This document shows, in pieces, positions 34,338-55,978 of a stretch of DNA of 64,000 nucleotides. The position numbers were made by a program, and so were the translations under genes. Within the stretch, counting starts at the first letter, position 1. Each line of letters starts with the position of its first letter. Source of the stretch: Spartinivicinus marinus (GTDB lineage Bacteria; Pseudomonadota; Gammaproteobacteria; Pseudomonadales; Zooshikellaceae); NCBI RefSeq assembly GCF_026309355.1, contig NZ_JAPJZK010000001.1, forward strand, positions 3,988,501 to 4,052,500, read 5' to 3'. The notes beneath the pieces are model-generated. The model was not told where the DNA came from. It ran no database searches and saw only the letters and a program-made list of their open reading frames with translations.

Positions 34338-34397
34338 AGGCTGGTTGCCTTTTTAATACCCTATAGAATATTTATTAGTATTATGCTAAGAGGGGGA

Positions 34398-34420: not shown

Positions 34421-34450
34421 ATGATATTAGGCAACAAATACAGATTAATG

Positions 34451-37400: not shown

Positions 37401-40400
37401 AAGCCTGCACCAATAAAATTCATGGCAGCGCCAAGTTTACCTGCAGTATTTGCTAATTTGCTGGATAAACTTTGGATGCGTTGACTGTTGGCAATTAAAT
37501 CTAAGGAAATATCTAATACATCTGTTGTAGAGCCAAGCCCTTCTTTGGCAGCATCATAATAATTGCCTGATTTAGCTGCTGCCAGAGTTTGATAAATAGA
37601 GCCAGGGAGTCGTGCTAGTTGCAATCCCATATTAATACGGCTAATGTTTCTGGCGATGGGAGCCAGTTTGCTACCATGTTGCTGGGAGTTGCCATATAAA
37701 CTGCGTTGATTCTGATCAACCTCAGTTAGTGTTTTTAAAGTTTGTTCCAGTTGTTTATTAAGAATTGTTAGCTTAGGCTCGCTTGTTTCTAAATTAGCTA
37801 CTGTGGTTAGCCGTTGCTGTAAAATTTGTTGGGCATCGTGATCACCACTGAAGTTTAAAGGGTGTTCACCTGTTTGTTGTAATCGCTGAACTAATAGTAA
37901 TGCCTGATAAGCTTGGTCACCATCAACTGTCTTCAACCAGTGATAAATATGGTTAGCATCCAGGCTCAGCTGTTGTTTTATGAGTAGCGGCTCTAAGTTA
38001 GTTAACTCAGCAATTTGCTGTCCTGTAAGCCGTTGCCCATTCTGACTTAAACCTAAAGTCCATAAATCTACCCGGCTCAAACTAATGTCGGCTACGCTAA
38101 CCCGGCCAAACAGATTATCTGCTTCTACCAGTCTCTGCCAAGTGGGGATTATTGGTGCTGAGATTTCATCAACAGCTCTATTGTTGGTGGTTAAATCTGT
38201 TTGAACTTCAGTCAGTTGCCATTGTTTCGTGTCTATATTAAGTTCTTTAAAGAGTAGTCTTAGTGATTTGATTGTGGGTAACTGATAGGCTTTCGCCGTA
38301 TCGGCATGATAGAGAGTTAACTGATTTTTTTGTTGAACCAGTGCAAATTGTTGATTTTTAAATTGCAAACGATAAAGCAACGTTTGTTTATTGCCACTAA
38401 AAGACTGTAGGGTGGCTATCAATGGGCTTATGTTAGTGCCATTGGCAAGCTCATTGATGCTATTGACTGAAATGGTTTTTATTTGCTCTGAAAAAGCCGT
38501 ACGCTGTTGGCTTTCACCATCAATTTCTGTTGGTAGCGCAGATAAAATGGTTAATTTTGCTTGGTTTGTGGCAAACTCCAAGCCATTTTCTAGGTTCTTG
38601 GTTGCTGCAGTTAAGAAGGCATGTTCCAGTTCTGTGGAGGTCAGGTTTAACTTGGTGGCGGCACTGTTTTCAGCATCGAGCGCTGGACGAAGTAACTCAC
38701 TGAGTTCAACTTGGCTTTTGACGCCTACCATCAGAGGGCGTAACACATCAGAGCGTAAAATGCGCTTACCGACACTATTTAAAGCTGCTGCAAATATACT
38801 GCGTTTATCTCGGCCAAATAAATTAGCTAAACCTTCTTTGTGGTGGAATAAAGCGCCTAATAACGTTTTACTGGTATCAGAAAACTGCTCATTACTAGCT
38901 AAGTCAGCTAAGAAACGTTCTCTATGAAAGGTTAAAATTTTGGTTTTCTTATGTCCCCACGAAATTTTAAATAAAGGTTTTAAAGGGTTTGCATTTGGGC
39001 CCCTGATTAGTTCAACTACATGGACAACAGGGCGAAGTGGGTTAGGGATATTCCAAGGTTTCTTGCTTTTTACAGTTGTAATTTCACTAATGTAGCGACT
39101 AACATCTATCTTGTGTCGTTTAAAATAATTAGGATTATTAACCAGTCGCGTAATAAAGCGCCGGTCTAATTCTGGGCCAAAGCCTAAAGCATCAGCGGCT
39201 TCAATAAGAGTAATAATTCTGTCTTGGATGCGCCCTGAGCTTTGTGTATAAGGACTTCCTGTTTTTATAGATCGTAGGTGTTCACTGATTTGGCTAAATA
39301 ATTGCCATTGATCATCTACATCTTGGCTTTTAACTAACTGTACCGCAGTATCTAGCAGCTTAAGTTGATCTGGTTGGGCGCGAATATCTGATAAGGCTTC
39401 ACGATAAAGGCGACGGTAGTGATCATCTCCAGAAGCGAACTGTCTTTCAAGTTTATTCAGTATTCGTTCAGCGCTGTAATGAGGGTTTTTTAATAGTTGT
39501 CGATAGATCTTTTGCCAGACTCTAGCGGGTGCTTGATCTTTTGAAAATTGGTAGAGGTTGCTCACTCGATCAACTAACAGTTGGCGAAGGGAGTCATCAG
39601 AATTCCCTTCACTTGATAAAATGGCTTTTTCGGCTTTAGTGGGTGTTTCGATAATATCAAAGCGGCGGCTCATATATTGGGCAATGGCTTGAGTAAAGCC
39701 AACACCACCAATAGTTGCACCTACGCCAGCAAATAAGATAGCACTAACACCAATTCCATAAGGACCGCCTAAGATCATGCCTAACTGACCGGCGGTTAAT
39801 ACAATATTGCCAAAAATATCAACTATATGAGCATTGCGTTGATTGGTATAAAACTGGTTGATAATACCCTTAACTTGTCGTAATTCAGGGCTGGCGTTGA
39901 TGAGTTCATTATTACGTAAGGTACCTAGCCACTCATTAAGGGTTTTGACTTCTTGAATACCTAAACCTGCTTTTGCTAGTCCTGCTACCACCATTTGGGC
40001 CTGGCCAATAACATTAAAAGTATCGCCAATAGTGCTAATCACTTGTCCATAAGGAATGGTGTTTTCACCTATTAAAAGCTGACTGGTAGCTCTGGTTTCA
40101 AATGAAATCATACCCCAGTACATGGAGCCTAAACCAGACTCAGTAAAATTCCCGGCTAAACGACTTTCAATAAACTTTAGCCATTTTTCTTCTTGTGCAC
40201 CTCGAAGCTCTGCAATTTTTTGTAATAGTGTTTGAGTATCCGGTGATTTGGGATCAAAAAGGTTGGCATTGTCTAAAGCTTTCAGTAGTTGGTTGATATT
40301 TTCATTACTATTGTTGCTATCACTATTTGCAAGTTGTTGCTCAATAGTTACTCTATGCTCGGATATTGTGTCAATTAACTTTCTTACTTGGGTAACAGCA

Positions 40401-41059
40401 TCGCTAATTTCAGTATCATCGCTTAGTTTGAGCTGGTTAAATTGTTTAAATAAAGCTTTTTTAAACCGTAATTGCTTGACAAGAGAGTCTACACTGGGGG
40501 GGTGGTCACTTGTTAATTGCTGTTCTTTAGCAAGTAATTCAGTTTGTAGTGTTTTTGTTAGCTCTTCCTTTAGCTCACTGATATTATCTTTTAATTCGGC
40601 AAACGCTTCTGATGCTTCATTACGTTCTTCTAGAGCACCTAACCAACCTTTATGTACCACTGCAATAAATCCAGGATATAAGCCTAGAGCCTGCACTGTT
40701 TGTACAAGCTTTCTTGGTAATCCTGAATTTTCTAAACTAACGGCTAAATCATCTCCACCATCAATAACCAATACCGGGCCACTTTCACCAGATGCAATAG
40801 GCGACACATTATGACCATTACGGCCTCTCAACTTTCGAAATAACCATGTTAGATGTTTTGCTCGACTTCTTTTATAGCCTTTTTGCAGAGCAGTCTGTGC
40901 ATCATCAAGATTGGTGAAATGCATTGTTTGCTCTAGAGGGCCTCCACTAACTTTCCAGGGAAAGCTATTTGAGTTGCTTTTAGAAATAGAGACGCCATAT
41001 GTGCTTTTAAGTTGTTCACTAGAGGTTAGGCTTGATAAGTCGTTTATATTTTGAGCCAT
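34451..41059 (-). CDS. Giant RTX toxin with TcdA/TcdB-like pore-forming domain
   Basis: 2202 residues. In order: N-terminal region (~1-140); coiled coil (~150-260); a hydrophobic glycine-rich block (~415-455, IVLTAGQLGMILGGPYGIGV); a large helical part; and a second hydrophobic block (~1130-1330, VSIATGIASLITVTAGPIGA) resembling the TcdA/TcdB pore-forming region. Calcium-binding RTX nonapeptides lie near 1555-1590 (GDDQLNGNEGDDQLAGG), 1880-1915 and 2060-2080. The C-terminus is polar, as in type I secretion signals. I see no cysteine in the chain, common for RTX proteins exported unfolded. No HlyB/HlyD/TolC or acyltransferase genes are adjacent. I see no glycosyltransferase or protease domain, so any catalytic cargo is unknown. 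Confidence 0.85.
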   Translation of the reverse strand: MAQNINDLSSLTSSEQLKSTYGVSISKSNSNSFPWKVSGGPLEQTMHFTNLDDAQTALQKGYKRSRAKHLTWLFRKLRGRNGHNVSPIASGESGPVLVIDGGDDLAVSLENSGLPRKLVQTVQALGLYPGFIAVVHKGWLGALEERNEASEAFAELKDNISELKEELTKTLQTELLAKEQQLTSDHPPSVDSLVKQLRFKKALFKQFNQLKLSDDTEISDAVTQVRKLIDTISEHRVTIEQQLANSDSNNSNENINQLLKALDNANLFDPKSPDTQTLLQKIAELRGAQEEKWLKFIESRLAGNFTESGLGSMYWGMISFETRATSQLLIGENTIPYGQVISTIGDTFNVIGQAQMVVAGLAKAGLGIQEVKTLNEWLGTLRNNELINASPELRQVKGIINQFYTNQRNAHIVDIFGNIVLTAGQLGMILGGPYGIGVSAILFAGVGATIGGVGFTQAIAQYMSRRFDIIETPTKAEKAILSSEGNSDDSLRQLLVDRVSNLYQFSKDQAPARVWQKIYRQLLKNPHYSAERILNKLERQFASGDDHYRRLYREALSDIRAQPDQLKLLDTAVQLVKSQDVDDQWQLFSQISEHLRSIKTGSPYTQSSGRIQDRIITLIEAADALGFGPELDRRFITRLVNNPNYFKRHKIDVSRYISEITTVKSKKPWNIPNPLRPVVHVVELIRGPNANPLKPLFKISWGHKKTKILTFHRERFLADLASNEQFSDTSKTLLGALFHHKEGLANLFGRDKRSIFAAALNSVGKRILRSDVLRPLMVGVKSQVELSELLRPALDAENSAATKLNLTSTELEHAFLTAATKNLENGLEFATNQAKLTILSALPTEIDGESQQRTAFSEQIKTISVNSINELANGTNISPLIATLQSFSGNKQTLLYRLQFKNQQFALVQQKNQLTLYHADTAKAYQLPTIKSLRLLFKELNIDTKQWQLTEVQTDLTTNNRAVDEISAPIIPTWQRLVEADNLFGRVSVADISLSRVDLWTLGLSQNGQRLTGQQIAELTNLEPLLIKQQLSLDANHIYHWLKTVDGDQAYQALLLVQRLQQTGEHPLNFSGDHDAQQILQQRLTTVANLETSEPKLTILNKQLEQTLKTLTEVDQNQRSLYGNSQQHGSKLAPIARNISRINMGLQLARLPGSIYQTLAAAKSGNYYDAAKEGLGSTTDVLDISLDLIANSQRIQSLSSKLANTAGKLGAAMNFIGAGLGTWYAVDSFKAASQTTGAERTDHLVAGSLAIAGTIVSIATGIASLITVTAGPIGAAIGLAISIAQGIYNAVRATNNLRAAGISEGDLWRAGAAVFFGFPVPEDIQNQAAYNQTWKVYQQQIDQQFQTLTESGIDKLVYSQGHIETHYGKVFGGVTGRHDYHNLSPKQRKEYDKHVPPHSPGHVFGHTPKPALVKTKGNLSANGSTLFMLGNGYDAAQGDQQRRNIFKITGWGRKHLFGGNKADIFELTGWRHGKGNADNGKSQFFGGLGEDTLSVRSYFSSRYMQKGVQGVSINLTQGIGDTPYSYGFEVSGIEHLIGSDKNDKFIGNAQSNTLAGYAGDDQLNGNEGDDQLAGGTGNDTVTGGQGSDSYIIQLDDLIEDTSVDIINNFDDHFQKNWQELYDDYFSGGMRLREHKLSYQSDNWQHTLDFQSKHHANHWVSRQSTDKPLQPVEDYLITNLATLTANQSANDLVISVDSRWLDYQRLVKQLHSLVVKNKENKSLAEQVTSKLPKALVTQPNSQLNLNPLIHTLANPTKTNLANNSQLQLLYSYFQQQQANQITVAKVDNYFTGRAYQHLTIVDMLGNKYSFANQPNEQSQLPLAAIQLSEQLGTKTIRLDLATKTISYQNNQGQQQSSMLASHQVNHARGSQNNDLLLGNNKDNWLHGDQGFDTIEGYGGNDTLVAGIGGGYLKGGEGFDTYQIQGNETKVEIDNIATDEKQDTLRFTQGLQNLALQRKGHHLTLAYLATEVQLIDWFTQQKHHLSVSVIDETNHQAGELNFAIVNQTLELQYLNLTYANNTSYKVDLMDGYYQWQHQGRTHTQQLNQLSQTKVFVQMGNGNDWLSTSKGLNHVSGSNGNDTYELTEQDTTLVIENYAEDNKLDTLEWANLRFESLSIKRENNSLLLLNAADRSQQVIVKGWFTGAQYRHLQVKNQQGDTYSSSDLEQLVQAMSSFNDKTQITSTLTNARLSGHHTVNSIVTAQ

Positions 41060-42016
41060 CAGTACAATCTACTCCAGATGGTGTGTGCTAGATAAATAGA
41101 ATCAGTAAAGCAGGGGATACCTGGACTTATATTGGTTTGGGATTTCTTCAGTCAAAGAACTTGTGCTCTTGGATATCCTCTTAAATAGCCAGGTTAGATA
41201 CAGCCAAAGTGGAAGAGGTATTGACTAAGTAGGGAATCAATAAGTAGGTAATTGGCTTTGTATTGACTGCTATACATTCAATTTTGGGTTATTACGTAAT
41301 ACGACAGTTTATAGAATATAAATGATAATGATTTATATTTGCGGTGTTATTTTTGTAACCGTTGGTATCGTTGTGTAAACCTGGGTAAGAGTAGAAAGTG
41401 ATAATACCAATTCATAACCATGCTGATTTATCAGATATCATTATGCTGTGAATAATACTGTGATGCACCTATATCATTCATATTAGCTAAAGCTCGTATA
41501 AAAATAATACACAAAATATTGATTTTCATACTTAGAAAAAAATCAGGCTAACAAGAATTTTTTTAGAGTATTTAATGGGGTTGGTATTATATAAAAGCAA
41601 AATTTTATATTTGCTGGTCATTAAGCTGTAATTATAAATAGTTAAGGTAAGCAATTACTGTTAACTCTAGACAGCTTAAAAACTTTTTCAAAACTAAATT
41701 GAATAAAACAATTTACTAATTGTCAAAGAAGCCCGAAAATACCCAGTACCTCACTGTTTGACAATTGTCTGAGTAGTCATGGAGCTGTACTTACTGGAAA
41801 TATCTTTTGTAGGATATAAAGCCTTATTGTTGGCTATAGAGACCTATATGGTGTGTTGATACTAACATTTTATTGGTTATAGCCTTCTCATAGAAGGCAT
41901 AGTATTGATATACCTTTAGCTGGTAATAAAAAGGTTATTTTGAAATTAAAAAAATGCAGGGTATAGCTCCATTTTAAAACCTGTTGTAGTGCTAAATTAA
42001 AAATCAAGGAAACGAA
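41060..42016. other. 957-bp divergent intergenic region between toxin and NRPS genes
   Basis: No gene on either strand. It contains the palindrome at 41315-41339, a small hairpin GCCTTC-TCATA-GAAGGC (~41883-41899) and an AT-rich tail leading to the NRPS ribosome-binding site (AAGGA). It presumably holds both promoters; I could not place -35/-10 boxes with confidence. Confidence 0.5.
41315..41339. promoter_or_regulatory. Fur-box-like palindrome
   Basis: AATATAAAT, GATAATG, ATTTATATT: nine-base perfect arms around a seven-base centre. Starting at 41324, GATAATGAT matches the first nine bases of the Fur consensus and about 13 of 19 overall. It is 256 bases upstream of the toxin ATG and 678 bases upstream of the NRPS. 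Confidence 0.4.
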
Positions 42017-45000
42017 ATGGTTGCTCGTATTAACTTACATCTATCTCAAGAAGAAATATTTTTTGATCAGGTTAAAAACCCTAAAACCACCCAGTGGAAT
42101 ATAGGTAATAATATTAAAATAACTGGTTTTCTTGATGTTGAAGTATTTATAGAGGCATTAAATTTAGCTGTTGATAATTTAGATTTATTTCAGCTTAAAG
42201 TTAATGAGCATGAAGGAGTACCTTACTTATATAAAAAACATGAAAATAATAAAAGCTATATAAGACAATTAGACTTTAGTGGTAAAGCGCAATCTTCAGA
42301 ACAGGCTAGAGCATTTATTAAAGATAAGTTTGATACCACTTTTGATCTATTTTCAGGAAAGCTTTTTGAATTTTATTTATTAAAGATAACCAACACGGAG
42401 TATTGGTGGTGTTCACGCTTTCATCATATTTTAATTGATGGATTTGGTATATCTCTATTTTGCAAAATAACGGCGAAGCTGTATACCTCTATTATTGAAG
42501 GTAAATCCACTGATTGGCTGCAACAAACTATACCTAACTATCTGGATGCAATTAAACACTCTCGCCACTACTTTAACTCGGAACAGTATAAAGAAGACTC
42601 TGATTATTGGATGAGAAAGTTTGATAAGCTTCCTGACAGCTTGCTTTCTCGCAAAAAGCACCACAAAGAGTTTCGTAGCGAAACCATTGATATTGATCTA
42701 TCTGAGTCAATAAGAAATCAACTTCAGCAGCTTGTAAATAACCACAAAAGCAGTTTATTGCAACTTACTATAGCAGCATTGAGCATCTATTTTACTAATG
42801 CAGAAGGGAAGCAAGCGCCTGTGTTTGGAATTCCTCTGCATAATCGCTTGAGTAAACAGCAGTTACAAACAGTGGGGATGTTTACTTCCTTAGTGCCCTT
42901 TTGCTCAAAAACTAATAAATCACAAACAGTGCAATCTTTATTAGCAGATATAAAAGTTATTAGGAAACAAGACTATTCTCATCAAAGTTTCCCTCTTGCT
43001 CATCTGAAAAGGTTGTTAGCAGAAAAATTTAGTCAAAGCCCTGAGTTTTTTGATGTTGCGGTTAACTATGGCAAGTTTGATTATCAGTTAGAGTTAAATG
43101 GGCTGAAATATTCAATAGAACAAATTATAAGCCGACAGAAGCCGCTACCTCTTCATGTTTTTTGGTGTGACTTCGGTGAGCATCAATCTTTAACGTTGAA
43201 AATTATCTACCGGGATGACTACCTGGACAAGCAGGAAGCTACACTTTTTGCTAATAGACTTATTCATATACTACAACAGTTTAAGAGTAATATTGATTGC
43301 CTCATTAATGATATTGAAATTATTAACCCCGTCGAACAAGCGCTTATTCAATCATGGGCCAGCTCTAAGCAAAGTGCTACTCAAGATAGTGATGAGCTAA
43401 ATCAGCAGACAATTCATCAGTTATTTGAAGATCAGGTAAACTGTCATTCTGATGCTGTTGCAGTAGTTTTTGGACAACAGCAGTTAACTTATCAGGCACT
43501 TAATTATAAAGCTAATCAGTTAGCTCATTATTTACGAGAACAAGGTGTTAAACCAGATACTTTGGTTGGGCTGTGTGTCGAGCGTTCTATCGAGATGGTC
43601 ATTGGTATGCTTGCCATCATTAAGGCAGGAGGTGCATATTTGCCGATAGATCCAAGCTATCCCAAGGAGCGACAAGCTTATCTATTAGACGATAGTAAGC
43701 CTCTATTGTTACTAACACAAAAAGCGTTGTTAACAGAGCTGCCAGATTATAGTGGTAATATTACCTGTATTGACTCAGACTGGGTAGATATTCAATGCTA
43801 TCCTCAGCAGAATCTATCTGTTAGCGGCAGCTTAAGTAACCTAGCTTATGTTATTTACACCTCTGGCTCTACCGGTAAACCTAAAGGTGTAGCTATTGAG
43901 CAGTCAGGTATTATACGGCTGGTAAAAAACACCAATTATATTTCACTATCTTCTGCAGATATTATTGCTCAAGCATCTAACCATTCTTTTGATGCGGCCA
44001 CCTTTGAAATCTGGGGTGCACTATTGAATGGTGCTAAATTAGTTTGCATTAATAAAGCGGTGTTATTAGTGCCAGAAGCACTGAAAGAGCAATTGCATCG
44101 CGATAAAATAACCACAATTTTTATGACAACAGCACTTTTTAATGCTGTTGCTGAGCAACTGCCGGATACATTTAAACCATTAACAAATGTGTTATTTGGA
44201 GGGGAGTCTGCTTCACCAAACTATATTAATCGAGTTTTAAAGGCTGGTAAGCCCAGGCACTTACTCAATGTATATGGACCTACAGAAAACACCACTTTTA
44301 GTACTTGGTATGAAATACAGTCCCAACAGAACTCATACCCTATTGGTATCCCTTTAAGCAATTCAAGTGCTTATGTTGTTAGCTCAAAAAACAATTTATG
44401 CCCTGTTGGAGTTGCTGGTGAGTTACTGGTAGGTGGGGTAGGGGTAGCTAGAGGTTATTTAAATAGGGTTGAGTTAACAGCTGAAAAATTTATTGCTAAC
44501 CCATTTAGTCCAGAATCTAAGAGCAGGCTTTATCGCACGGGTGATTTAGTTCGCTGGTTGTCAGATGGTAATCTAGAGTTTTTAGGGCGTATTGATAATC
44601 AAGTAAAACTGCGTGGATTTCGAATTGAACTAGGTGAAATAGAAACGCTATTAGAGCAGCATGAACAAGTAACTGAAGCGGTTGTTATAATACGAGAAGA
44701 TCAACCAGAGGATAAACGCTTGGTTGCTTATGTAGTTACAGCAATTGAAGCAAATAAAAACACTACAATACTCGAAAATGAGTTGCTTCAGTATCTAGCA
44801 GGTCAACTGCCAGAGTATATGGTACCTATGGCTATTACCCAGCTATCAGTACTGCCTTTAACAGAAAATGGCAAGGTTGATTATCGAGCACTTCCCAAGC
44901 CTAATTATAGTCAGGCTAGTGATATAAGTATGCCAACCAGTCCTATTGAGAAATCACTTGCATCAATCTGGCAACAACTGCTGGGTATTGGGCGACAGCT

Positions 45001-48000
45001 TAGTCTACATGATCATTTTTTTAATTTAGGAGGACATTCATTATCAGCTGCAAAACTAGCTAGCCAAGTACGCCAGCAGTTTAAAGTTGATATTGGTATT
45101 GATATTGTATTTGCTCAGCCAACGCTTGGTGCATTAGCTAATGTGATAGCAAAGTCAAAAGCGACTGAGTTACCACAGATTCATCCTACTGACCGTACTA
45201 AGCCTTTACCTTTATCTTACGCCCAGCAACGTTTGTGGTTTGTTGACCAAATGGAAGAAAACAGTCAGCAATATCATATACCAGTGACATATCATTTATC
45301 AGGTAGCCTTGATATTAATGCATTGTCTGAGGCGTTTAACCAATTATTTAGACGTCACGAATCGTTAAGAACAGTTTTTCAGTTAAATTCAGGAGAAGCT
45401 CAGCAAATTATTAAGCCGTTGCCAAAGAACTGGCAGATAGCTGTGACTGATTTGCGTGATAAAAATATAGAAGAGCAACATCAACAAATACATAGCTTAA
45501 ACCAACAGCTACATAAAATACCATTTGATTTAAGCCATGACTTAATGCTGCGTGCCCATTTGATCAGACTGCAGGATTATGAGGCTCAGCTATTAATTAC
45601 AATGCATCATATTGCTGCGGATGGTTGGTCAGTAGAAATTTTAGTTAATGAGTTAAATCAACTTTATAGTGAAGTGGTTGCTAAGCATCTACCTAAACTA
45701 GCAGAATTATCCATTCAATATGGTGATTATGCAGTATGGCAGAAAAACTGGCTACGAGGTGAAGTACTTGAAAAAGAGTTGGCTTATTGGCAACAGCAAC
45801 TAGCAGGGGCTCCTGAAGTACATAATTTGCCTTTAGATAAGCCTCGACCAGTTATTCAACAATATCAGGGTAAGCGAGTAAATTTAACTGTTCCTGCTAG
45901 TTTGACACAACAATTTGAAAGGATGTGTCAAAAGCAAGAAGCTACTTTATTTATGGGACTGCATGCGATCTTATCCATATTAATAAATCGCTATAGTGGA
46001 GACACAGATATTGTAATTGGCACTCCGGTGGCAAATCGGGAGCAAGCTGAAATTGCACCATTGATAGGTTTTTTTGTAAATACTTTAGTGTTAAGAGCTG
46101 ATTTATCTGCTCAAATGAGTTTTAATCAGCTTTTAAATAAAATAAAACAAACAGCATTAGCTGCCTATGCTCATCAGCAAGTGCCTTTTGATAATATAGT
46201 AGAGCATTTACAACCTTCTCGTAGTTTAAGTTATCATCCTATTTTTCAAATTGTACTGGCTTTGCAAAATAATCAACAAGCAGAGTTACAGTTTCCAGGT
46301 ATAAAATCTAAGCTGCTTAAACCTGAGTTATTCACTGCTAAATTTGACTTAATGCTTAATATTGAATCAAGTTCAGCAGGGTTTACTTTATGGTGGGAAT
46401 ATAATACAGCATTATTTAACCACGACTCTATTGAGCAGCTAGCAAGGCACTTTAACCAATTAATTGAGCAGGTAGTGTCAACGCCTGATTTGCCTTTTAA
46501 ACAGCTATCTTTATTAACTAAAGATGAACGGCAGAGTTTATTAATTGACAGAAGTAATGTTCAGTCTAATTATCAAGGTAGCCAGACTATTCATCGACTA
46601 TTTGAGTTACAGGCAGTAAAAGCACCAGATTCGATAGCTGTGATAAGTGAAGGGCAGCAACTAACGTACTATCAACTTAATCAGCAAGCAAATCAATTAG
46701 CTCACTTTCTTCAAGCTAAAGGTGTGAATACTGAAACTATCGTGGGATTATGTATTGATCGGTCTGCTGAAATGTTGGTAAGTATTTTAGCCATATTAAA
46801 AGCGGGTGGGGCTTACCTTCCTCTTGATCCTAGTTATCCTCAAGATCGCTTAACTTATATATTAGATGACAGTAAACCCTTATTACTAATTACACAAAGC
46901 AACTTATCAAGTAAATTACCTGAATATGATGGCTCGCTAATTTGTATCGATACGGATTGGCCGAAAATTCAAAATTACTCTGATCAAAATCTACCAGAGA
47001 AAACCAGTATCAACAAACTTGCTTATGTTATTTATACATCAGGTTCAACTGGTAGGCCAAAAGGTACCCTGGTTCCCCATAAGGGTATTGTGCGGTTAGT
47101 TGATAATAATCAGGTATTATCATTTTTATCAGCTACAACAGTCACTTTGCAAGCTGCTTCAATTGCCTTTGATGCAGCCACATTTGAAATATGGGGAGCT
47201 TTGTTAAATGGCGGGCAGGTAGTACTTTATGGTGAAGATACGGTTGATATCCAGTTACTAGAAACCACAATTAATCAGTACCAAATAAATACAGTTTGGT
47301 TAACAGCTGGCTTATTTGATCACTTTGTTCAGCAGTCAGTAACACCATTAAACTCATTACGATTTTTATTAGCTGGTGGTGATGTGGTTTCACCTGAGTC
47401 TGTTTATAAACTTTATCAGCAGCACTCTCATATTCAAGTGATAAATGGCTATGGCCCAACAGAAAATACCACATTTACGTGTTGCTATCCTATACCTCGC
47501 CACTTTAATCAGAGCCAAGCGTTACCGATTGGTAAGCCGATTGGTAGTACCCATTTGTATGTATTAAATGAAATGTTGGACTTACTACCGGTAGGCGCTA
47601 TAGGAGAGCTGTATGTGGGTGGTGATGGTTTAGCAAAAGGCTACTTGAACCGGCCTGAACTAACGTCAAAACAGTTTATACCACACCCGTTTAGCTCTGA
47701 ACCTAATGCTCGATTATATCGAACAGGGGATTTAGTGCGCTGGCTTCCAGATGGAAACTTAGCTTTTATCGGACGGGTAGATCATCAAGTTAAAATACGT
47801 GGTTTTCGGATTGAGCTAGGAGAAATAGAGGCATTAATTGCCACTCATGCACAGATACATGAAGTAGCCGTTATTGCCAGAGAAGATCAGCCAGGTGATA
47901 AACGACTGGTTGCCTATATAGTTGCAGAGCCAACGGCTAATTTTTCAATACTAAAAAATAGCCTAATGAAGCAGTTAGCGACTCAGTTACCTGAGTATAT

Positions 48001-51000
48001 GGTACCTGCTGCATTGGTAGAGCTAACTGTCATGCCGCTAACAACAAATGGTAAAGTTGATCGCAAGGCTTTACCTAAGCCAGATTATCGTGAACACTCA
48101 GTGTTGATTGAGCCAGTCAGTCCACTACAAATAGCATTAGCTCAGCTTTGGCAGCAAATATTGGGGATAACAGATGGATTAAGTGTCACTGATAATTTCT
48201 TTTCCCTAGGAGGACATTCGTTATTAGCAGTAAAACTCATTGGAATAATTCGACAGCAATTTAATGTTGATATTAATGTAAGGGATATATTTACCGCTCC
48301 TACTTTGATTGGTTTGGCTGAGATTATTGAGAAATCAGGCAAAGTGGAGCAAACCACTATTACTGTGGCTGATCGCTCACTCCCCCTACCTTTATCTTAT
48401 GCTCAACAGCGGCTATGGTTTATTGATCAAGTAGAAGAGGGCAGTGAGCAGTATCATATGCCTTATATATACCGGCTGGTTGGCTCTTTAAATAAAGAAG
48501 CATTATCACAAGCATTTAGAAAAATTTTATTACGTCATGAAAGTTTGAGAACAGCCTTTAAGTTGGTAGATGGGGAAGCACAACAATATATACAAAAGCT
48601 ACCAGATAACTGGTGTATGGTTATTACCGATTTACGCAGCAACTCCAATAGCTACCAGCAAATGCAGCTTGATAAAATAAAGCAGCAAATACATAAAACA
48701 CCTTATAACTTAAATCAGGATTTGATGTTACGTGTACACTTGGTTCAACTAAAGGATCAAGAGGCATTACTTTTGATGAATATGCACCATGTTGCTTCTG
48801 ATGGTTGGTCAGTAGGGGTATTAATTAACGAGCTTAATGTACTGTATAACAATATTTGTCAAGGAAAAGCCATCGAAGCTAACCTCCCAGAGCTAACTAT
48901 TCAATATGGTGATTATGCGGTTTGGCAACGAAACTGGTTACAAGGAGATGTTTTAGAGCAGCAGCTTGACTATTGGCAGCAACAGTTGTTGGGTATGCCT
49001 GAAGTACATAGTTTGCCATTGGATAAGCCCAGGCCAGCGATACAGCAATATCAGGGTGATCGACTGATTTGCGAAGTAGAGATAGATCAGATCAGGCGGC
49101 TTACTGCTTTATGTCAAGCCCAGGGGGCTACCCTGTTTATGGGGTTGCATGCAGTCTTGGCTATTTTAATGAATCGCCTGAGTGGAGAAACAGATATTGT
49201 TATTGGTACTCCAGTGGCTAATCGTGAACAAGCAGAGGTGACTTCACTAATTGGTTTCTTTGTAAATGCATTAGTATTGCGTAGTGATTTATCGAGTGAA
49301 ACGAGCTTTAAATGTGTTTTAAAGCATTCGAAACAAACAGCGTTAGCCGCTTACTCTTACCAACAAGTACCTTTTGATCACTTGGTAGAGCGGTTACAAC
49401 CTTCGCGTAGCTTGAGTTATCATCCTTTATTTCAAGTGATGCTGGCTCTGCAAAATAATGAGCAAGTTGCACCTGCTTTAGAATGTATCTCTGCGGAACT
49501 GCTAAAGCCTGATTTTCCTGTTGCTAAATTCGATTTAACATTAATTGCAGAAGAGCGAGAAAATAGTTTTGGTCTGACCTGGGAGTATAATACGGCTATA
49601 TTTGAAGCTGAAACAATCACTCGGTTTGCTAAATATTTTAACCAGATATTAGAGCAGGCTATATTAACTCCTGATATACCAGTGACACAGCTGCCATTGT
49701 TATCAAAACAAGAAGCTAAACAATTATTAGCTAATTTTTCACCTACAACCAATGCTGTTATAAATGACAGTTGTATTCACCATCTATTTGAGCAACAAGC
49801 AGACAGCACACCTGAACAAACGGCAGTGATATTTGAATCCCAACAACTGAGTTATCGGCAGTTAAATGAAAGAGCCAACCAATTAGCATATTATTTGATT
49901 GATAAAGGGGTTACTCCAGGATCTTTTGTAGGAGTTTGCTTACCTCGTTCATTTGACTTAATTACTGCTATTTTAGGTATTTTAAAAGCTGGTGGTGTAT
50001 ATGTGCCCCTTGACCCTAACTACCCTTTAGATCGTTTGTCCTTCATGATTGAAGATAGTAAGGTAAAATTTGTCTTGATGAATAAAATGTTGACTGATAC
50101 ATCGCCATTGGATCAAATACAAATAAGCCAGTCCAATATTATTTATGTTGATGAGCCAGAGATAATTGAAAAGATTAATCAATACCCGGCTAATAATATA
50201 CCAAACACGATCGTTAATATTGCTGGAGATGATCTAGCTTATATTATTTATACCTCTGGCTCTACAGGCAAGCCAAAGGGGGCATTGGTTAAACATCAAG
50301 GCTTAGTTAATATTTTACAAACTCAGCAGGATAAACTGCAATTATCACCTATTAGTCGAGTACTTCAGTTTGCGTCCATTAGTTTTGATGCGGCTACTTG
50401 GGAATGGAGTATGGCACTTACTTCTGGTGCTACACTATATTTATTCCCACAATCGATGATAGCATCATTAGAAACGATATCTGAGCAAGTGGCTCGTTTT
50501 GAACTAACACATGCATTATTACCACCTGCGGTACTGCCGCTATTAGATGAGAACAGCTGGCAATCAGTGAAATGTCTAATTATAGGAGGCGACAGCTGTC
50601 CACTGGGACTGGCTAATCAATGGGCGCAAAATAGAATATTGTTTAATGCTTATGGGCCTACTGAAGCAACTATTTGTGCCACCATTGCTAGAATCACTGA
50701 AAATAGTCCAATTGTCCATATTGGTAAACCATTTGTTGGAGTAGAAGCCTATGTGTTAGATAACAACCTTCAAGTAGCACCCGTTGGTGTACCAGGAGAG
50801 CTTTATATTGGAGGAATAGGGGTTGCTAAAGGTTATTTAAATAGACCTGAGCTAACTGCAGAGAAATTTATTGCCAACCCTTTTAGTCGCGATCCTGATG
50901 CTCGATTGTACGCAACAGGTGACTTAGTGCGCTGGTTGCCAGATGGTAATTTAGCTTTCATGGGTAGAATTGATCACCAGGTAAAAATACGCGGCTTTCG

Positions 51001-54000
51001 TATAGAGTTGGAAGAGATTGAAGCTCAGGTACTGAATTGTGACGGAGTAAAAGAAGCTGTAGTAATTGCTCGTGAAGATCAGCCTGGTGATAAACGACTG
51101 GTTGGGTATATAGTTGTTGATGAATATAGTAGTTTTACCATAATTAAGCCTGCAATATTACAACAATTAACTGAGCAGCTACCTGAATATATGATTCCTT
51201 CAGCATTGGTTGAAGTAATAGCACTGCCCTTGACTCCTAATGGAAAAGTGGACCGAAAAGCACTACCTAAACCAGTCTACCAGGCCGAATCGGCTATAGT
51301 TGATCCTGAATCTGAAGTAGAAGTTACACTAGCTGAATTATGGCAGAAGGTATTGGGGATTGACGATAAACTAAGCGTAAATGATAACTTTTTTGCATTA
51401 GGAGGGCATTCATTACTAGCTGTTCGTTTAAGTGGACTGATAAGACAGAAGTTTAATGTTGATATCAGTGTTAGAAATATTTTTACTGCACCTACAGTAG
51501 CAACACTTGCTAAGTGTATTGAACAGGCAAGAATAAGTGAGCAGCCTAAAATTGTTTCAGTAGACCGGTCAATCCCTCTTCCTCTTTCTTATGCACAACA
51601 GCGATTATGGTTTATCGATCAAATGGAAGAAGGGAGTCAACAGTATCATATACCTTTTATTTATCGATTAACCGGTAAGATTAATTACGAAGCTTTATCT
51701 CAGGTATTTATTAAGTTATTAATTCGTCATGAGAGCTTAAGAACCGTAATTAGATTACATGAAGGTAAAGCTGCACAGATGGTGCAACCACTACCAGCTG
51801 ATTGGTTACTACCTGTTACTGATTTGAAACATTACCCTACTGAAAATCAACAAGAAAAAGTTAATGCTTTAAAACAGCATTTACATAAAACAAGGTTTGA
51901 TTTAAGTCAGGATTTAATGCTTAGAGCACATCTTGTCGTGCTAGCGAGTGATGAAGCATTATTATTAGTGACTATGCATCATATTGCGTCTGATGGTTGG
52001 TCAGTGGGTATTTTAATTGATGAGTTAAATCAGCTGTATAATAGCCTCGTTATTGAAGATTCAACAAATTTACCTGAGCTTACAATACAATATGGGGACT
52101 ATGCGGTTTGGCAAAGACAGTGGCTGCAAGGGGAAGTACTGGAGCGAGAGTTAGACTACTGGAAAAAACAATTAGCGGGTATTCCTGAAATACATAGCTT
52201 ACCTTTGGATAAGCCTAGACCCGTTATTCAGCAGTTTAATGGTAAACATTATTTCTGTGAAATTGATTCTGAACTGGCAAAGCGATTCAAAACATTGTGC
52301 CAGACTCAGGGTGCTACATTGTTTATGGGGCTTCATGCTGTACTAGCTACTTTACTGAGCCGTTATAGCGGTGAGACAGATATTGTAATTGGTACACCTG
52401 TTGCCAATCGTGAGCAAGCAGAAATAGCTTCATTAATCGGCTTTTTTGTTAATACCTTAGTTTTACGTTGTGATTTATCTACTGAACTAAGCTTTAATGA
52501 ATTACTAAATCAATGTAAACAGACGGCCTTAGCAGCCTATGCCCATCAACAAGTACCATTTGATCATTTGGTTGAAAGTTTACAGCCTGCCCGTAGTTTA
52601 AGCTATCACCCAGTTATTCAAGTAATGCTGGCATTACAGAATAACCAACGCAGTGACTTACAGTTTAGTGGATTGAGCATTGCCAGTGAACCGATGGAAC
52701 TGACAGCATCACTGTTTGACTTAACCCTGAATGTGGTGGAAAGAGAAGGTAAATTCAGTTTGTGCTGGGAGTATAATACTGACTTGTTTTATGAATCAAC
52801 TATAGAAAACATGGCCCGTCGTTTTGAAAAAATAATGACATTTGCTACTGCACGGCCAGGTCAGTCTGTATTTAAGTTGCCAATTTTAACAAACTTTGAG
52901 GAGCAACAGTTACTCAATATACATCAGCAGCAAACACTGTTAAATAATGATGAGCCTATTTGCATTCATCAGTTATTTGAACAAATAGCAAATCAGTATC
53001 CTGACACCACGGCTGTAGTGTATGGTAAGCAAAGTGTAAATTATGCTGTTTTAAATAAAATGGCGAATCGGCTGGCTCATTACCTAGTTGAACAGGGAGT
53101 TAAGCCTGATAATATAGTAGCAATTTGCCTTGAACGCTCAATTGATTTAATGATTGCTATTTTAGCAATTTTGAAGGCCGGCGGTGCTTATTTGCCGCTT
53201 GACCCAACCTATCCTGATGAGCGTTTAAACTATATGTTGGAGGACTCTGGTGTTAAACAATTGATTACTAATAAGTTGTTATTAGATAAACTGGATTGTC
53301 ACCATCAACATGTAGTTTGTATTGATGAGCAGGATTTACAACAGCTGCTGGTAAACTATCCAGAAAATAATATTAATCCAGAAGCAATTAATCTAGCTAG
53401 TCACCATTTAGCCTATTTAATTTATACCTCAGGTTCTACTGGATTGCCGAAAGGTGTTATGGTTGAGCATCAATCGCTAGTTAATCATATTAATGTGGTG
53501 ATTAAAGCTTACCAGGTAAGTCCAGAAGATAGAGTGTTACAGTTTTTTAATATTGGGTTTGATGCTGCAACTGAACAGTTTTTTGTTAGTTTTTTAGCTG
53601 GTGCCACTTTATATTTGCATGATAAAGGGTTAGTGACTGATAAGGAATTTGCAAAATTATTAATTGAAAGCCAGCTAACACATATTGATTTACCACCACT
53701 ATATGCGAAAGAAGTATTATTACCTTATGTCAATGATACTGAGTTTTGGCAACAAGCTAAATTGCATTGTGTCATTGTAGGAGGTGATGTATTACCCGCA
53801 GATTTTGCCAAAGCATGGGCAACTAGTCTGGCTAATCAACATTGCCAATTAGTTAATATCTATGGTCCTACTGAAGCGACTATTGCATCTACTTATTATA
53901 TTATCCCTGATAATATATCTTATAACTCAATTCCTATAGGCAGTAATACAGCAGGTTCTAAACTATATGTATTGGATCAATATCAGTCATTAGTTCCCGT

Positions 54001-55978
54001 TGGTGTTCCTGGTGAGTTATATATTGGCGGTGATGGGGTTGCAAGAGGGTATTTAGGACGTCCTGAATTAACAGCAGAAAAATTTATTGCAGATCCATAT
54101 GCTGACCTTAAAAGCACTGGTGATGTTAAAATGTACCGCACTGGTGATAGAGTTCGGTGGCTTCCGGATGGTAATTTAGAGTTTTTAGGACGGATTGATA
54201 ATCAAGTTAAAATTCGTGGTTATAGAATTGAGCTAGGTGAAATTGAGACACAACTGAATTTGCATGATTGGGTGTCTGATTCAGTAGTAGTTATTTATGG
54301 TAGTGATGGAGATGAAAAGAAAATTGTCGCTTACCTTGTTATAGGTAATGATAGTGATATTTGCCAGCAAATGTTACAAAGAGAGCTTGAGGCATATTTG
54401 AAGCAACGTTTGCCTGATTATATGGTACCAGTTTGCTTCATGGTAATTGACCAAATACCTTTAACACCCAATCAAAAGGTTAACCGAAAGGCATTACCAG
54501 AACCAGTATTCCACAGCAGTCAAGAAGCCATCGAAACGGCTGAAACAGATTTAGAGCAGCAGCTATTAGTTATTTGGCAGACTGTATTAGATGGTAATAA
54601 AGCTTTCGGTACTACAGATGACTTTTTTGCATTGGGTGGGCATTCGATTTTAGCTGTGCGCTTAGTTGCAGCAATTAATAAAGAGCTAGACTTTAAACTG
54701 AGTATTCAGCAATTATTTGCTAACCCAACGATTAGAGAGCTGGCCTATTTTATAGAAGGAAGTAAAAATAAGGAAATTGGCGCAGAGGCTAAAGTCAATC
54801 CACTTGAATACCGGCAAGTAATAATTGATGAGAATTTACTATCAGCGATCCCTGATTTTTCTCAACCATCAACAGACTTTAAAAGAGGATTTGACCATGT
54901 TCTGATAACTGGAGTAACAGGGTTTGTTGGAGCGTATTTGCTAAACAAAGCACTTACTCAATGGGCGAAAGCTGTCTGTTACTGCGTAGTAAGAGCTACG
55001 GATATTAATGAGGGATTTTTAAGAGTAAAACAAAACCTACAAAAATTTGGCTTATGGCAAGCCTCTTATAGTGATCGAATAATTGTCGTATTGGGTGATC
55101 TTAATCAGGAAAGATTAGGTATAGTAGATAGTTTATGGGAGTCATTAGCAGAAGCAATTGATCTTATTGTTCATAATGGTGCTTGGGTTAATCACTTGTT
55201 ACCTTATCAACAGTTAAAAATGGCTAATGTAAATGCTACATTGTCATTAATTGAGCTAGCAAGTAAGGGGGGGGCAACTCGATTTGCCTATATATCAACA
55301 ACTGGGATATTCAGTAGCCAACCAGGAAGAGATAACGTCACAGAAACAACCTCAACAGAAAGTGAAAGACAACTCGTTCATTCAGGTTATGGTGCTTCAA
55401 AATGGGTAGCAGAACGACTATTACTTGCTGCACAACAAAAAGGACTAGATTTATTTATTTTCAGATTGGGGCGAGTAGCTGCTGATAGTAATACAGGACA
55501 AGGTGCTCCAGACGATGTGATTGGCCGTTATTTGCGATCTTGTCTGATGTTAGGTATTTTTCCTGATAATTTATTTGAGGAACCATTAATTACTGTAGAT
55601 ACTGTTGCTGATGCAGTTATTAGAATGGTTGGGCAGCATTCACAAACCCTGAGAGTGTTCCATTTAATCGGTAGTCAAACGGTAGACTGGAATCAAGTAT
55701 TAGCGAAAAATACAACACTAACACAGGTGAGTTGGCAGGAATGGCTTGCCACTGCAAAGTCTGTTGTCAATGAGAATAGCAACTTACCTGTTGCCCCTTA
55801 TTTGCATGGTATTTTCGATAGTACAGCTAAAGTCGCTAGTTTTTCGATTGATCAGGAATTGACCGAAAAATCGTTGGGTAGTCAAAATATCACCCTTTCA
55901 AGGGTAACGGATAGTATGCTAAACCAATACTTAAGTCGATTGGCTGAAACAGTAGACATTGTATTAGAAGCGATTTAA
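42017..55978 (+). CDS. Four-module nonribosomal peptide synthetase with terminal thioester reductase
   Basis: 4653 residues; ATG with AAGGA upstream. Domain order: C1 (starter, EntF-like, HHILIDG ~138), A1 (YTSGSTGKPKG ~613), T1 (GGHSL ~1008), C2 (HHIAADG ~1197), A2 (~1670), T2 (~2065), C3 (HHVASDG ~2257), A3 (~2745), T3 (~3128), C4 (HHIASDG ~3321), A4 (~3800), T4 (GGHSI ~4205), and a reductase domain (GVTGFVG ~4297; STTGIF with GYGASKWVAE ~4440-4470). No epimerase or thioesterase is seen; C2-C4 look LCL, so an all-L peptide is likely. Specificity codes read by eye: A1 DAFFLGVTF (aliphatic), A2 DAFWLGGTF (Val), A3 DAWLIGAIC (hydrophobic), A4 DAEDIGIIA (basic). An active starter C domain suggests an N-acyl cap. 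The R domain should release an aldehyde or alcohol. No transporter or PPTase gene adjoins. Confidence 0.95.
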   Translation: MVARINLHLSQEEIFFDQVKNPKTTQWNIGNNIKITGFLDVEVFIEALNLAVDNLDLFQLKVNEHEGVPYLYKKHENNKSYIRQLDFSGKAQSSEQARAFIKDKFDTTFDLFSGKLFEFYLLKITNTEYWWCSRFHHILIDGFGISLFCKITAKLYTSIIEGKSTDWLQQTIPNYLDAIKHSRHYFNSEQYKEDSDYWMRKFDKLPDSLLSRKKHHKEFRSETIDIDLSESIRNQLQQLVNNHKSSLLQLTIAALSIYFTNAEGKQAPVFGIPLHNRLSKQQLQTVGMFTSLVPFCSKTNKSQTVQSLLADIKVIRKQDYSHQSFPLAHLKRLLAEKFSQSPEFFDVAVNYGKFDYQLELNGLKYSIEQIISRQKPLPLHVFWCDFGEHQSLTLKIIYRDDYLDKQEATLFANRLIHILQQFKSNIDCLINDIEIINPVEQALIQSWASSKQSATQDSDELNQQTIHQLFEDQVNCHSDAVAVVFGQQQLTYQALNYKANQLAHYLREQGVKPDTLVGLCVERSIEMVIGMLAIIKAGGAYLPIDPSYPKERQAYLLDDSKPLLLLTQKALLTELPDYSGNITCIDSDWVDIQCYPQQNLSVSGSLSNLAYVIYTSGSTGKPKGVAIEQSGIIRLVKNTNYISLSSADIIAQASNHSFDAATFEIWGALLNGAKLVCINKAVLLVPEALKEQLHRDKITTIFMTTALFNAVAEQLPDTFKPLTNVLFGGESASPNYINRVLKAGKPRHLLNVYGPTENTTFSTWYEIQSQQNSYPIGIPLSNSSAYVVSSKNNLCPVGVAGELLVGGVGVARGYLNRVELTAEKFIANPFSPESKSRLYRTGDLVRWLSDGNLEFLGRIDNQVKLRGFRIELGEIETLLEQHEQVTEAVVIIREDQPEDKRLVAYVVTAIEANKNTTILENELLQYLAGQLPEYMVPMAITQLSVLPLTENGKVDYRALPKPNYSQASDISMPTSPIEKSLASIWQQLLGIGRQLSLHDHFFNLGGHSLSAAKLASQVRQQFKVDIGIDIVFAQPTLGALANVIAKSKATELPQIHPTDRTKPLPLSYAQQRLWFVDQMEENSQQYHIPVTYHLSGSLDINALSEAFNQLFRRHESLRTVFQLNSGEAQQIIKPLPKNWQIAVTDLRDKNIEEQHQQIHSLNQQLHKIPFDLSHDLMLRAHLIRLQDYEAQLLITMHHIAADGWSVEILVNELNQLYSEVVAKHLPKLAELSIQYGDYAVWQKNWLRGEVLEKELAYWQQQLAGAPEVHNLPLDKPRPVIQQYQGKRVNLTVPASLTQQFERMCQKQEATLFMGLHAILSILINRYSGDTDIVIGTPVANREQAEIAPLIGFFVNTLVLRADLSAQMSFNQLLNKIKQTALAAYAHQQVPFDNIVEHLQPSRSLSYHPIFQIVLALQNNQQAELQFPGIKSKLLKPELFTAKFDLMLNIESSSAGFTLWWEYNTALFNHDSIEQLARHFNQLIEQVVSTPDLPFKQLSLLTKDERQSLLIDRSNVQSNYQGSQTIHRLFELQAVKAPDSIAVISEGQQLTYYQLNQQANQLAHFLQAKGVNTETIVGLCIDRSAEMLVSILAILKAGGAYLPLDPSYPQDRLTYILDDSKPLLLITQSNLSSKLPEYDGSLICIDTDWPKIQNYSDQNLPEKTSINKLAYVIYTSGSTGRPKGTLVPHKGIVRLVDNNQVLSFLSATTVTLQAASIAFDAATFEIWGALLNGGQVVLYGEDTVDIQLLETTINQYQINTVWLTAGLFDHFVQQSVTPLNSLRFLLAGGDVVSPESVYKLYQQHSHIQVINGYGPTENTTFTCCYPIPRHFNQSQALPIGKPIGSTHLYVLNEMLDLLPVGAIGELYVGGDGLAKGYLNRPELTSKQFIPHPFSSEPNARLYRTGDLVRWLPDGNLAFIGRVDHQVKIRGFRIELGEIEALIATHAQIHEVAVIAREDQPGDKRLVAYIVAEPTANFSILKNSLMKQLATQLPEYMVPAALVELTVMPLTTNGKVDRKALPKPDYREHSVLIEPVSPLQIALAQLWQQILGITDGLSVTDNFFSLGGHSLLAVKLIGIIRQQFNVDINVRDIFTAPTLIGLAEIIEKSGKVEQTTITVADRSLPLPLSYAQQRLWFIDQVEEGSEQYHMPYIYRLVGSLNKEALSQAFRKILLRHESLRTAFKLVDGEAQQYIQKLPDNWCMVITDLRSNSNSYQQMQLDKIKQQIHKTPYNLNQDLMLRVHLVQLKDQEALLLMNMHHVASDGWSVGVLINELNVLYNNICQGKAIEANLPELTIQYGDYAVWQRNWLQGDVLEQQLDYWQQQLLGMPEVHSLPLDKPRPAIQQYQGDRLICEVEIDQIRRLTALCQAQGATLFMGLHAVLAILMNRLSGETDIVIGTPVANREQAEVTSLIGFFVNALVLRSDLSSETSFKCVLKHSKQTALAAYSYQQVPFDHLVERLQPSRSLSYHPLFQVMLALQNNEQVAPALECISAELLKPDFPVAKFDLTLIAEERENSFGLTWEYNTAIFEAETITRFAKYFNQILEQAILTPDIPVTQLPLLSKQEAKQLLANFSPTTNAVINDSCIHHLFEQQADSTPEQTAVIFESQQLSYRQLNERANQLAYYLIDKGVTPGSFVGVCLPRSFDLITAILGILKAGGVYVPLDPNYPLDRLSFMIEDSKVKFVLMNKMLTDTSPLDQIQISQSNIIYVDEPEIIEKINQYPANNIPNTIVNIAGDDLAYIIYTSGSTGKPKGALVKHQGLVNILQTQQDKLQLSPISRVLQFASISFDAATWEWSMALTSGATLYLFPQSMIASLETISEQVARFELTHALLPPAVLPLLDENSWQSVKCLIIGGDSCPLGLANQWAQNRILFNAYGPTEATICATIARITENSPIVHIGKPFVGVEAYVLDNNLQVAPVGVPGELYIGGIGVAKGYLNRPELTAEKFIANPFSRDPDARLYATGDLVRWLPDGNLAFMGRIDHQVKIRGFRIELEEIEAQVLNCDGVKEAVVIAREDQPGDKRLVGYIVVDEYSSFTIIKPAILQQLTEQLPEYMIPSALVEVIALPLTPNGKVDRKALPKPVYQAESAIVDPESEVEVTLAELWQKVLGIDDKLSVNDNFFALGGHSLLAVRLSGLIRQKFNVDISVRNIFTAPTVATLAKCIEQARISEQPKIVSVDRSIPLPLSYAQQRLWFIDQMEEGSQQYHIPFIYRLTGKINYEALSQVFIKLLIRHESLRTVIRLHEGKAAQMVQPLPADWLLPVTDLKHYPTENQQEKVNALKQHLHKTRFDLSQDLMLRAHLVVLASDEALLLVTMHHIASDGWSVGILIDELNQLYNSLVIEDSTNLPELTIQYGDYAVWQRQWLQGEVLERELDYWKKQLAGIPEIHSLPLDKPRPVIQQFNGKHYFCEIDSELAKRFKTLCQTQGATLFMGLHAVLATLLSRYSGETDIVIGTPVANREQAEIASLIGFFVNTLVLRCDLSTELSFNELLNQCKQTALAAYAHQQVPFDHLVESLQPARSLSYHPVIQVMLALQNNQRSDLQFSGLSIASEPMELTASLFDLTLNVVEREGKFSLCWEYNTDLFYESTIENMARRFEKIMTFATARPGQSVFKLPILTNFEEQQLLNIHQQQTLLNNDEPICIHQLFEQIANQYPDTTAVVYGKQSVNYAVLNKMANRLAHYLVEQGVKPDNIVAICLERSIDLMIAILAILKAGGAYLPLDPTYPDERLNYMLEDSGVKQLITNKLLLDKLDCHHQHVVCIDEQDLQQLLVNYPENNINPEAINLASHHLAYLIYTSGSTGLPKGVMVEHQSLVNHINVVIKAYQVSPEDRVLQFFNIGFDAATEQFFVSFLAGATLYLHDKGLVTDKEFAKLLIESQLTHIDLPPLYAKEVLLPYVNDTEFWQQAKLHCVIVGGDVLPADFAKAWATSLANQHCQLVNIYGPTEATIASTYYIIPDNISYNSIPIGSNTAGSKLYVLDQYQSLVPVGVPGELYIGGDGVARGYLGRPELTAEKFIADPYADLKSTGDVKMYRTGDRVRWLPDGNLEFLGRIDNQVKIRGYRIELGEIETQLNLHDWVSDSVVVIYGSDGDEKKIVAYLVIGNDSDICQQMLQRELEAYLKQRLPDYMVPVCFMVIDQIPLTPNQKVNRKALPEPVFHSSQEAIETAETDLEQQLLVIWQTVLDGNKAFGTTDDFFALGGHSILAVRLVAAINKELDFKLSIQQLFANPTIRELAYFIEGSKNKEIGAEAKVNPLEYRQVIIDENLLSAIPDFSQPSTDFKRGFDHVLITGVTGFVGAYLLNKALTQWAKAVCYCVVRATDINEGFLRVKQNLQKFGLWQASYSDRIIVVLGDLNQERLGIVDSLWESLAEAIDLIVHNGAWVNHLLPYQQLKMANVNATLSLIELASKGGATRFAYISTTGIFSSQPGRDNVTETTSTESERQLVHSGYGASKWVAERLLLAAQQKGLDLFIFRLGRVAADSNTGQGAPDDVIGRYLRSCLMLGIFPDNLFEEPLITVDTVADAVIRMVGQHSQTLRVFHLIGSQTVDWNQVLAKNTTLTQVSWQEWLATAKSVVNENSNLPVAPYLHGIFDSTAKVASFSIDQELTEKSLGSQNITLSRVTDSMLNQYLSRLAETVDIVLEAI

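Follow-up and report, generated by a model that had tools for sequence, protein, structure and literature searches.

A single-gene nonribosomal peptide synthetase of Spartinivicinus predicted to make an acylated, leupeptin-like peptide argininal

INTRODUCTION

Leupeptin and other peptides of the argininal type serve as standard inhibitors of proteases. Among the closest described systems are the acyl-aeruginosins of Nodularia spumigena, made by AerB-AerG-AerM, which share with the synthetase considered here a starter condensation (C) domain, proposed to add C2 to C10 fatty acyl groups in Nodularia, a terminal reductase (R) domain, and, as predicted here, an argininal end (PMC3765200). The last acyl-aeruginosin module incorporates Arg with an adenylation (A) domain code containing Glu at position 239 (E239), and E239 is likewise found in the last A domain (A4) of the present synthetase (PMC3765200). 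The spumigins and pseudospumigins (Hpla-Hty-Pro or Ile-argininal) are also linear trypsin inhibitors with argininal or Arg-mimetic ends, and the spumigins are released by an R domain, as is predicted here (PMC5128752, PMC5640712).

In this study, we analyzed a nonribosomal peptide synthetase (NRPS) gene within a 64,000-nucleotide stretch of Spartinivicinus marinus DNA, referred to below as the window (G000:C1:3988501-4052500; G000 is the 6.88-Mb genome of this organism, and G001 and G002 are Spartinivicinus congeners). The original prediction for this gene was an N-capped tetrapeptide aldehyde with a basic C-terminal residue.

RESULTS

The NRPS is encoded by a single uninterrupted open reading frame (ORF) of 4653 aa (~14 kb) at 42017..55978 on the plus strand, as are all domains described below. 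Pfam placed four Condensation, four AMP-binding, and four PP-binding domains in the protein, followed by one C-terminal NAD_binding_4 (thioester reductase) domain, giving the layout (C-A-T)x4-R. An HHxxxDG motif was present in all four C domains (aa 136, 1197, 2257, and 3321), and LGGHS carrier motifs were found at aa 1004, 2064, 3128, and 4206, corresponding to T1 (44924..45151), T2 (48104..48331), T3 (51326..51520), and T4 (54524..54766), where the bounds of T1, T2, and T4 are approximate. No epimerization domain was detected: the protein has only four recognizable C-family domains, and in the C-domain tree described below C2 to C4 fell apart from the group read as E-type. The original prediction of four C-A-T modules without an epimerase, ending in a reductase and contained within one gene, was thus borne out by the intact ORF, the Pfam domains, the C and carrier motifs, and the complete R-domain motifs, as well as by the separation of C2 to C4 from E-type domains.

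An intact orthologue was present in all three of the Spartinivicinus genomes searched, with ORFs of 4653, 4651, and 4674 aa. The substrate pocket codes of A2 to A4 were identical in the three genomes, and that of A1 showed one change in G002 (DAFFIGVTFK). Over the whole protein, comparison with G001 gave a dN of 0.058 and a dS of 0.53; the gene is under strong purifying selection. Because intact orthologues occur in every one of these genomes and dN is so far below dS, the gene is not a product of chance.

Pfam searches of ten neighboring ORFs (29944-63621) identified a carbonic anhydrase, a bestrophin, an EamA transporter (~10 kb from the NRPS), a hexapeptide-repeat protein, a CheR methyltransferase, an RTX-repeat protein, and a type II/IV secretion ATPase, with the remaining three falling below family cutoffs; there was no acyl-activating or obvious peptide-tailoring gene among them. 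An Rfam search of window positions 40900-42200 gave no match. No MbtH gene lies beside the NRPS, and the sole match in the genome is on another contig (G000:C2:15540-15680). The NRPS seems to be a pathway of one gene that draws its substrates from primary metabolism. On the minus strand (window positions 33332-41059), the CheR gene and the gene for the RTX-repeat protein, which is 2202 aa long, separate the hexapeptide-repeat gene from the NRPS. Apparent counterparts of this pair lie at the corresponding position in G001, and G002 has no listed ORF of at least 150 aa there.

The first condensation domain, C1 (42020..43351), carries the motif HHILIDGFG, and its best match among solved structures was RzmA-Cs (7c1k; 92.7 bits), with EntF next at 74.3 bits. 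RzmA-Cs is an acyl-CoA starter domain (PMC7804268). In a control search, the best solved match of C2 (45206..46543) was Txo1 (334.8 bits), and RzmA-Cs was missing from the 40 sequences retrieved with C2 at an E value of 1e-15. C1 matched 40 plasmid records, and in 5/5 of the regions opened the match began no more than 26 residues from the start of the protein. A tree was built from C-family domains of the Spartinivicinus gene and of genes from G001 to G004 (G003 and G004 being relatives described below), from genes on plasmids, and from long ORFs at 17 selected loci, chosen among the best 80 of 523 genome loci; 6 of the 91 domains were shorter than 380 aa and were dropped, leaving 85 for maximum-likelihood analysis. 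Five of the comparison genes had been picked for their similarity to C1, and rows L063, L082, and L112 had not. C1 fell within a 100/100 clade of 13 domains, all of which precede any other C domain in their protein or frame, although this clade includes several long branches and the letter composition of C1 is unlike the rest of the alignment. This position groups C1 with N-terminal initiation domains. The extended motif HHxxxDG-x-G was present in 11 of the 13 rows of the clade and in none of the other rows among the 85. Position alone does not define a starter domain, since 8 of the 21 rows that begin within 50 aa of the frame start lay outside the clade, some of them belonging to follow-on subunits. 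C1 is probably a starter (acyl-loading) domain, judging from its clade and structural match, and the cap would be an acyl chain. C2, C3 (48374..49726), and C4 (51569..52921) grouped with internal C domains read as LCL, apart from the groups read as E and DCL, and are putatively of the LCL type.

In RzmA-Cs, residue 148 sets the chain length, a longer side chain giving a shorter acyl group: Arg at this position is associated with acetyl, and Ala in HolA with octanoyl (PMC7804268). The C1 residue aligned to this position, in the register given by the HHxxxDG motif, is Ile145, which weakly suggests a short-to-medium acyl chain.

Pocket codes were obtained from a MAFFT alignment to GrsA, with the GrsA letters checked against 1AMU; they are DAFFLGVTFK (A1), DAFWLGGTFK (A2), DAWLIGAICK (A3), and DAEDIGIIAK (A4). 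A code identical to that of A1 (43394..44896) has been assigned to Ile, and in part to Val, in the cyanopeptolin domains OciB-A5/OciC-A7 (PMC2533009), to L-Ile or D-allo-Ile in suomilide/aeruginosin domains (PMC13122637), and to Ile in NIES-98 AerB (PMC3765200, Table 2). By this exact match, A1 is predicted to take Ile, with Val as a possible side activity. The code of A2 (46574..48076) is identical to one listed for Val in MlcM (PMC9113097), and A2 would take Val. For A3 (49754..51271), the code is that of GrsA, DAWTIAAIC, changed by T278L and A301G. The published switch of GrsA to Leu is T278M/A301G, and for the T278L/A301G/S447N mutant the 50% effective concentration is ~200 uM with Leu and ~392 uM with Phe (PMC10590383). 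Because A3 has the T278L/A301G pair and the GrsA mutant responds to both residues, A3 is predicted to take Leu, with Phe possible. These codes agree with the original assignment of the first three residues as aliphatic, Val, and hydrophobic (Leu/Phe-like).

The R domain (54857..55975) scored 267.1 bits against the NCBIfam thioester-reductase model (cutoff, 213.35). It contains TGVTGFVG, STT, and YGASKW, so that the nucleotide and Thr/Tyr/Lys motifs are intact. The best solved match was MxaA (177.3 bits), and AusA gave 59.5 bits. MxaA yields an alcohol. Since this is the closest solved R domain, a four-electron reduction of the same peptide, which would give an argininol instead of an aldehyde inhibitor, must be considered. 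In Nodularia, argininol and argininal forms coexist, and strain CH307 has mostly argininol forms as we read the columns of Table 3 (PMC3765200). By the same columns, however, strains AV1 and CCY9414 release argininal as a main form (PMC3765200), and argininol is practically absent among the pseudospumigins described (PMC5640712). The alcohol is therefore an unlikely outcome here, and by analogy with these Arg-R precedents the chain is likely to be released as an aldehyde.

The identity of the C-terminal residue depends on A4 (52964..54511). Its code, DAEDIGIIA, agreed letter for letter with that of the original prediction. The pocket region FDAATEQ...DLPPLYAKE...YGPTEATIA (53558..53896) has a longer loop than those of A1 to A3 by alignment and spacing counts, the FDA-to-YGP spacing being 101 in A4 versus 95, 94, and 89 in A1, A2, and A3, respectively. 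Spacings near that of A4 were found in the AerM-coded domains of the cyanobacterial loci L068 and L081 (100) and in the final A domain of the G003 gene (102); other E239-type domains differ (96 in L112 and 114 in L119). None of the published codes compared with A4 was both identical and linked to a known product. The closest was DVEDIGIIAK, ApnA-A1 genotype i, with 7/8 pocket residues identical; this genotype comes from one strain, in which the domain takes Arg and Tyr (PMC5311044, Table 2). A4 shares 6/8 residues with the Arg-only genotype a (DVEDIGAIEK) and 6/8 with the Arg-plus-Lys genotype e (PMC5311044), and only 4 or 5/8 with the AerM Arg codes (PMC3765200, Table 2).

The original prediction also allowed for Lys or Orn at this position, in which case a lysinal or ornithinal end could cyclize to an imine. 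Two acidic pocket residues, E239 and D278, would suit a basic side chain of this kind. The Lys code of bacitracin, DAESIGSV, shares 5/8 residues with A4, including A236, which is missing from the ApnA codes, and is as near to A4 as the AerM Arg codes or nearer (PMC3207962). In addition, ApnA-A1 genotypes d and e, with D278 and E331, incorporate Lys beside Arg (PMC5311044). Domain 1923 of Pseudomonas syringae pyoverdine synthesis, assigned to Lys by best match with a second predictor disagreeing, shares 4/8 residues (PMC3207962). However, A4 has I322 and I330, where BacB (Lys) and domain 1923 have S/T322 and V330, and its pocket is closest to the ApnA-A1 Arg/Tyr and Arg codes. This difference between 7/8 and 5/8 identity favors Arg over Lys or Orn; a basic residue, as originally predicted, is the best-supported reading, and the imine branch of that prediction appears rather improbable, despite the 5/8 agreement with the Lys code.

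A4 might instead be bispecific, so that one synthetase would yield argininal and tyrosinal peptides. The one-residue neighbor DVEDIGIIAK comes from a strain with both Arg and Tyr at the corresponding position (PMC5311044), and residue 331 is one of two ApnA-A1 sites tied to bispecificity. This precedent is limited to one strain, however; at the second of these sites, 278, A4 has Asp, which it shares with Arg-only genotypes a and b, and residue 236 differs from that of genotype i. We regard dual specificity as doubtful, more so than the Lys/Orn assignment. The pocket thus points to Arg as the most likely A4 substrate, with Tyr or Lys possible.

Whole-domain similarity was dropped as a guide to the A4 substrate. 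When multidomain LgrA entries are set aside, the best PDB match of A4 was ApnA-A1 (408.9 bits), but the controls A1 and A3 scored above A4 against the same domain (445.1 and 418.4 bits), and the pocket alone was used for this reason. Literature text searches with the A3 and A4 code strings retrieved no relevant paper. This result means little, because the table-printed code DVENVGAIT, which stands letter by letter in PMC3765200, was also missed. Outside the orthologues, the nearest A4 relatives among the sequences compared were three A domains with the code DAEEVSNIT (51% identity) in a second large NRPS of the same genome (G000:C1:5754826-5790225; frames of 8732 and 3203 aa), where the code DAWLIGAIC recurs.

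Automated family models offered other labels. The MxcG (myxochelin synthetase) label was rejected, given a score of 2033 bits, below the NCBIfam cutoff of 2300, and the presence of four modules. AusA is a dimodular A-T-C-A-T-R enzyme with a free N terminus. An AusA-type fate, in which the aldehyde would condense with a free N terminus to form a pyrazinone (aureusimine), is scarcely credible: the NCBIfam equivalog score was above the cutoff (3014.7 versus 2500 bits), but it is assembled from four stretches across four modules, the R domain alone gives 95.7 bits to the AusA model, and no free amine is expected for cyclization because the protein has four modules and an N-terminal starter-type C domain, on which grounds the label too was rejected. 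The high score is probably a sum of domain scores over the four modules, and automatic annotation may misname the gene. Assignment to the aeruginosin family was rejected, as no Choi-type code (DVHICAFLV; PMC3765200, Table 2) was present among the four A domains.

A search with the T4-R region at an E value of 1e-20 found matches in 7 of 56 genomes (own genome and relatives), of which five, G000 to G004, belong to the same family and are 41 to 100% identical. Among class genomes, 8 of 369 matched at 1e-45, including G000, with the others at no more than 35% identity and at most 4 candidates per genome scored in the rows shown. Alignment of the A4 pocket against genome contigs gave a top identity of 38% and no close orthologue among the best 80 of 523 matches, from which records near the window genome may be left out. 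G003 and G004 belong to another genus of the family, probably Zooshikella. Their R domains joined that of the window with 100/100 support, and their starter C domains joined C1 with 98/97. The G003 gene encodes a 2643-aa protein, C-A-T-C-A-T-R, with two modules versus four; in these shorter NRPSs, the first code is DALFFG[IV][IV]C and that of the last A domain is DAEDVGAIA. In G004 (contig C18; loci L027 and L028), the relative is split into ORFs of 518 and 2091 aa, reflecting a broken gene or an assembly error. For Zooshikella ganghwensis VG4, a one-ORF, seven-domain NRPS has been described, with a PRISM-predicted product of 3-hydroxydecanoyl-Phe-aminohexanoic acid (PMC6127377); judging from the domain count, this may be the same gene.

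Other NRPSs with reductase ends or basic codes were encountered. The genome of the window contains a second reductase-ended NRPS (L019; G000:C1:2630446-2631807, a 1466-aa frame). Both congeners have a relative of L019 (L017 and L018), and the L019 R domain clusters with the one from L125 of G398, in which the A code is DTEDIGTVV. Locus L133 (42-10586) of another gammaproteobacterium, G170, encodes an NRPS that has three A domains, two C domains, and a terminal R domain and whose first module includes a methyltransferase. Its codes are DAWYLGGIC, DVQYIAHVV (Pro), and DAEDIGAIT (E239 type), and the predicted product is an N-methyl-X-Pro-argininal. Such a product would resemble efegatran, a synthetic thrombin inhibitor. 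In Calothrix PCC 7103 (L081:2-4333), DVEDIGAVE lies two modules upstream of a module with DVENVGAIT and an R domain. In ApnA-A1, genotype b has DVEDIGAVE as its Arg code (PMC5311044), and the Calothrix arrangement suggests a peptide with two basic residues.

DISCUSSION

With moderate confidence, we propose that this one-gene assembly line makes N-acyl-L-Ile-L-Val-L-Leu-argininal, a reversible, leupeptin-like protease inhibitor. C1 would transfer an acyl group, which is probably of short or medium length, to Ile-T1 with acyl-CoA or acyl-ACP as the donor, in keeping with its clade and best solved match. C2 to C4 would then add Val, Leu, and Arg without epimerization, the substrates being those suggested by identical or similar published codes. 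The R domain would free the chain as a C-terminal aldehyde through a putative two-electron reduction, and the product would, like leupeptin, reversibly inhibit trypsin-like serine and papain-like cysteine proteases. The domains, the starter-type C1, and the A4 code support a tetrapeptide of L residues only that is N-capped, ends in a basic residue, and is released by reduction, in line with the original prediction.

The compound type is known; acyl-Ile-Val-Leu-argininal itself looks new as a predicted structure, and searches of open-license PMC papers by title and abstract found no published product for this gene and no report of that compound. The whole assembly line occupies a single 14-kb gene, its four codes are interpretable, and it begins with a starter C domain; it should be easy to express and test. 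The [M+H]+ values predicted for acyl-Ile-Val-Leu-argininal are 526.3711 (acetyl), 554.4024 (butanoyl), 582.4337 (hexanoyl), 610.4650 (octanoyl), 638.4963 (decanoyl), 666.5276 (dodecanoyl), and 654.4912 (3-OH-decanoyl), with +18.0106 for the hydrate and +2.0157 for the alcohol. If the proposal is correct, the starter-C/Arg/reductase logic described for Cyanobacteria (PMC3765200) extends to a marine genus of Gammaproteobacteria noted for its red pigments, and the genes of the family offer a natural comparison of two- versus four-module inhibitors with homologous ends.

A broader idea, tentative and in our judgment unlikely, is that the family keeps a lineage-specific set of lipidated peptide-aldehyde protease inhibitors in which the ends (starter acyl and argininal) are fixed and the length evolves between two and four modules, with a bispecific A4 in Spartinivicinus. 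A bispecific A4, if real, would give argininal and tyrosinal ends from one gene, directed at trypsin-like and chymotrypsin-like targets together.

Among known compounds, leupeptin (Ac-Leu-Leu-argininal) has both the Leu-argininal end and the N-acyl cap predicted here, but is acetyl capped and one residue shorter. The biosynthetic enzymes of leupeptin are of a different kind. Spumigins and pseudospumigins have a hydroxyphenyllactate cap rather than the predicted acyl cap, and pseudospumigins contain D-Hty or D-Hph, whereas all-L residues are predicted here (PMC5128752, PMC5640712). The acyl-aeruginosins of Nodularia require three NRPS genes together with AerD/E/F and others in an eight-protein operon, in contrast to one gene here, and they are built around a Tyr-Choi core in Cyanobacteria, whereas the Spartinivicinus peptide would carry an Ile-Val-Leu core in the Gammaproteobacteria (PMC3765200).
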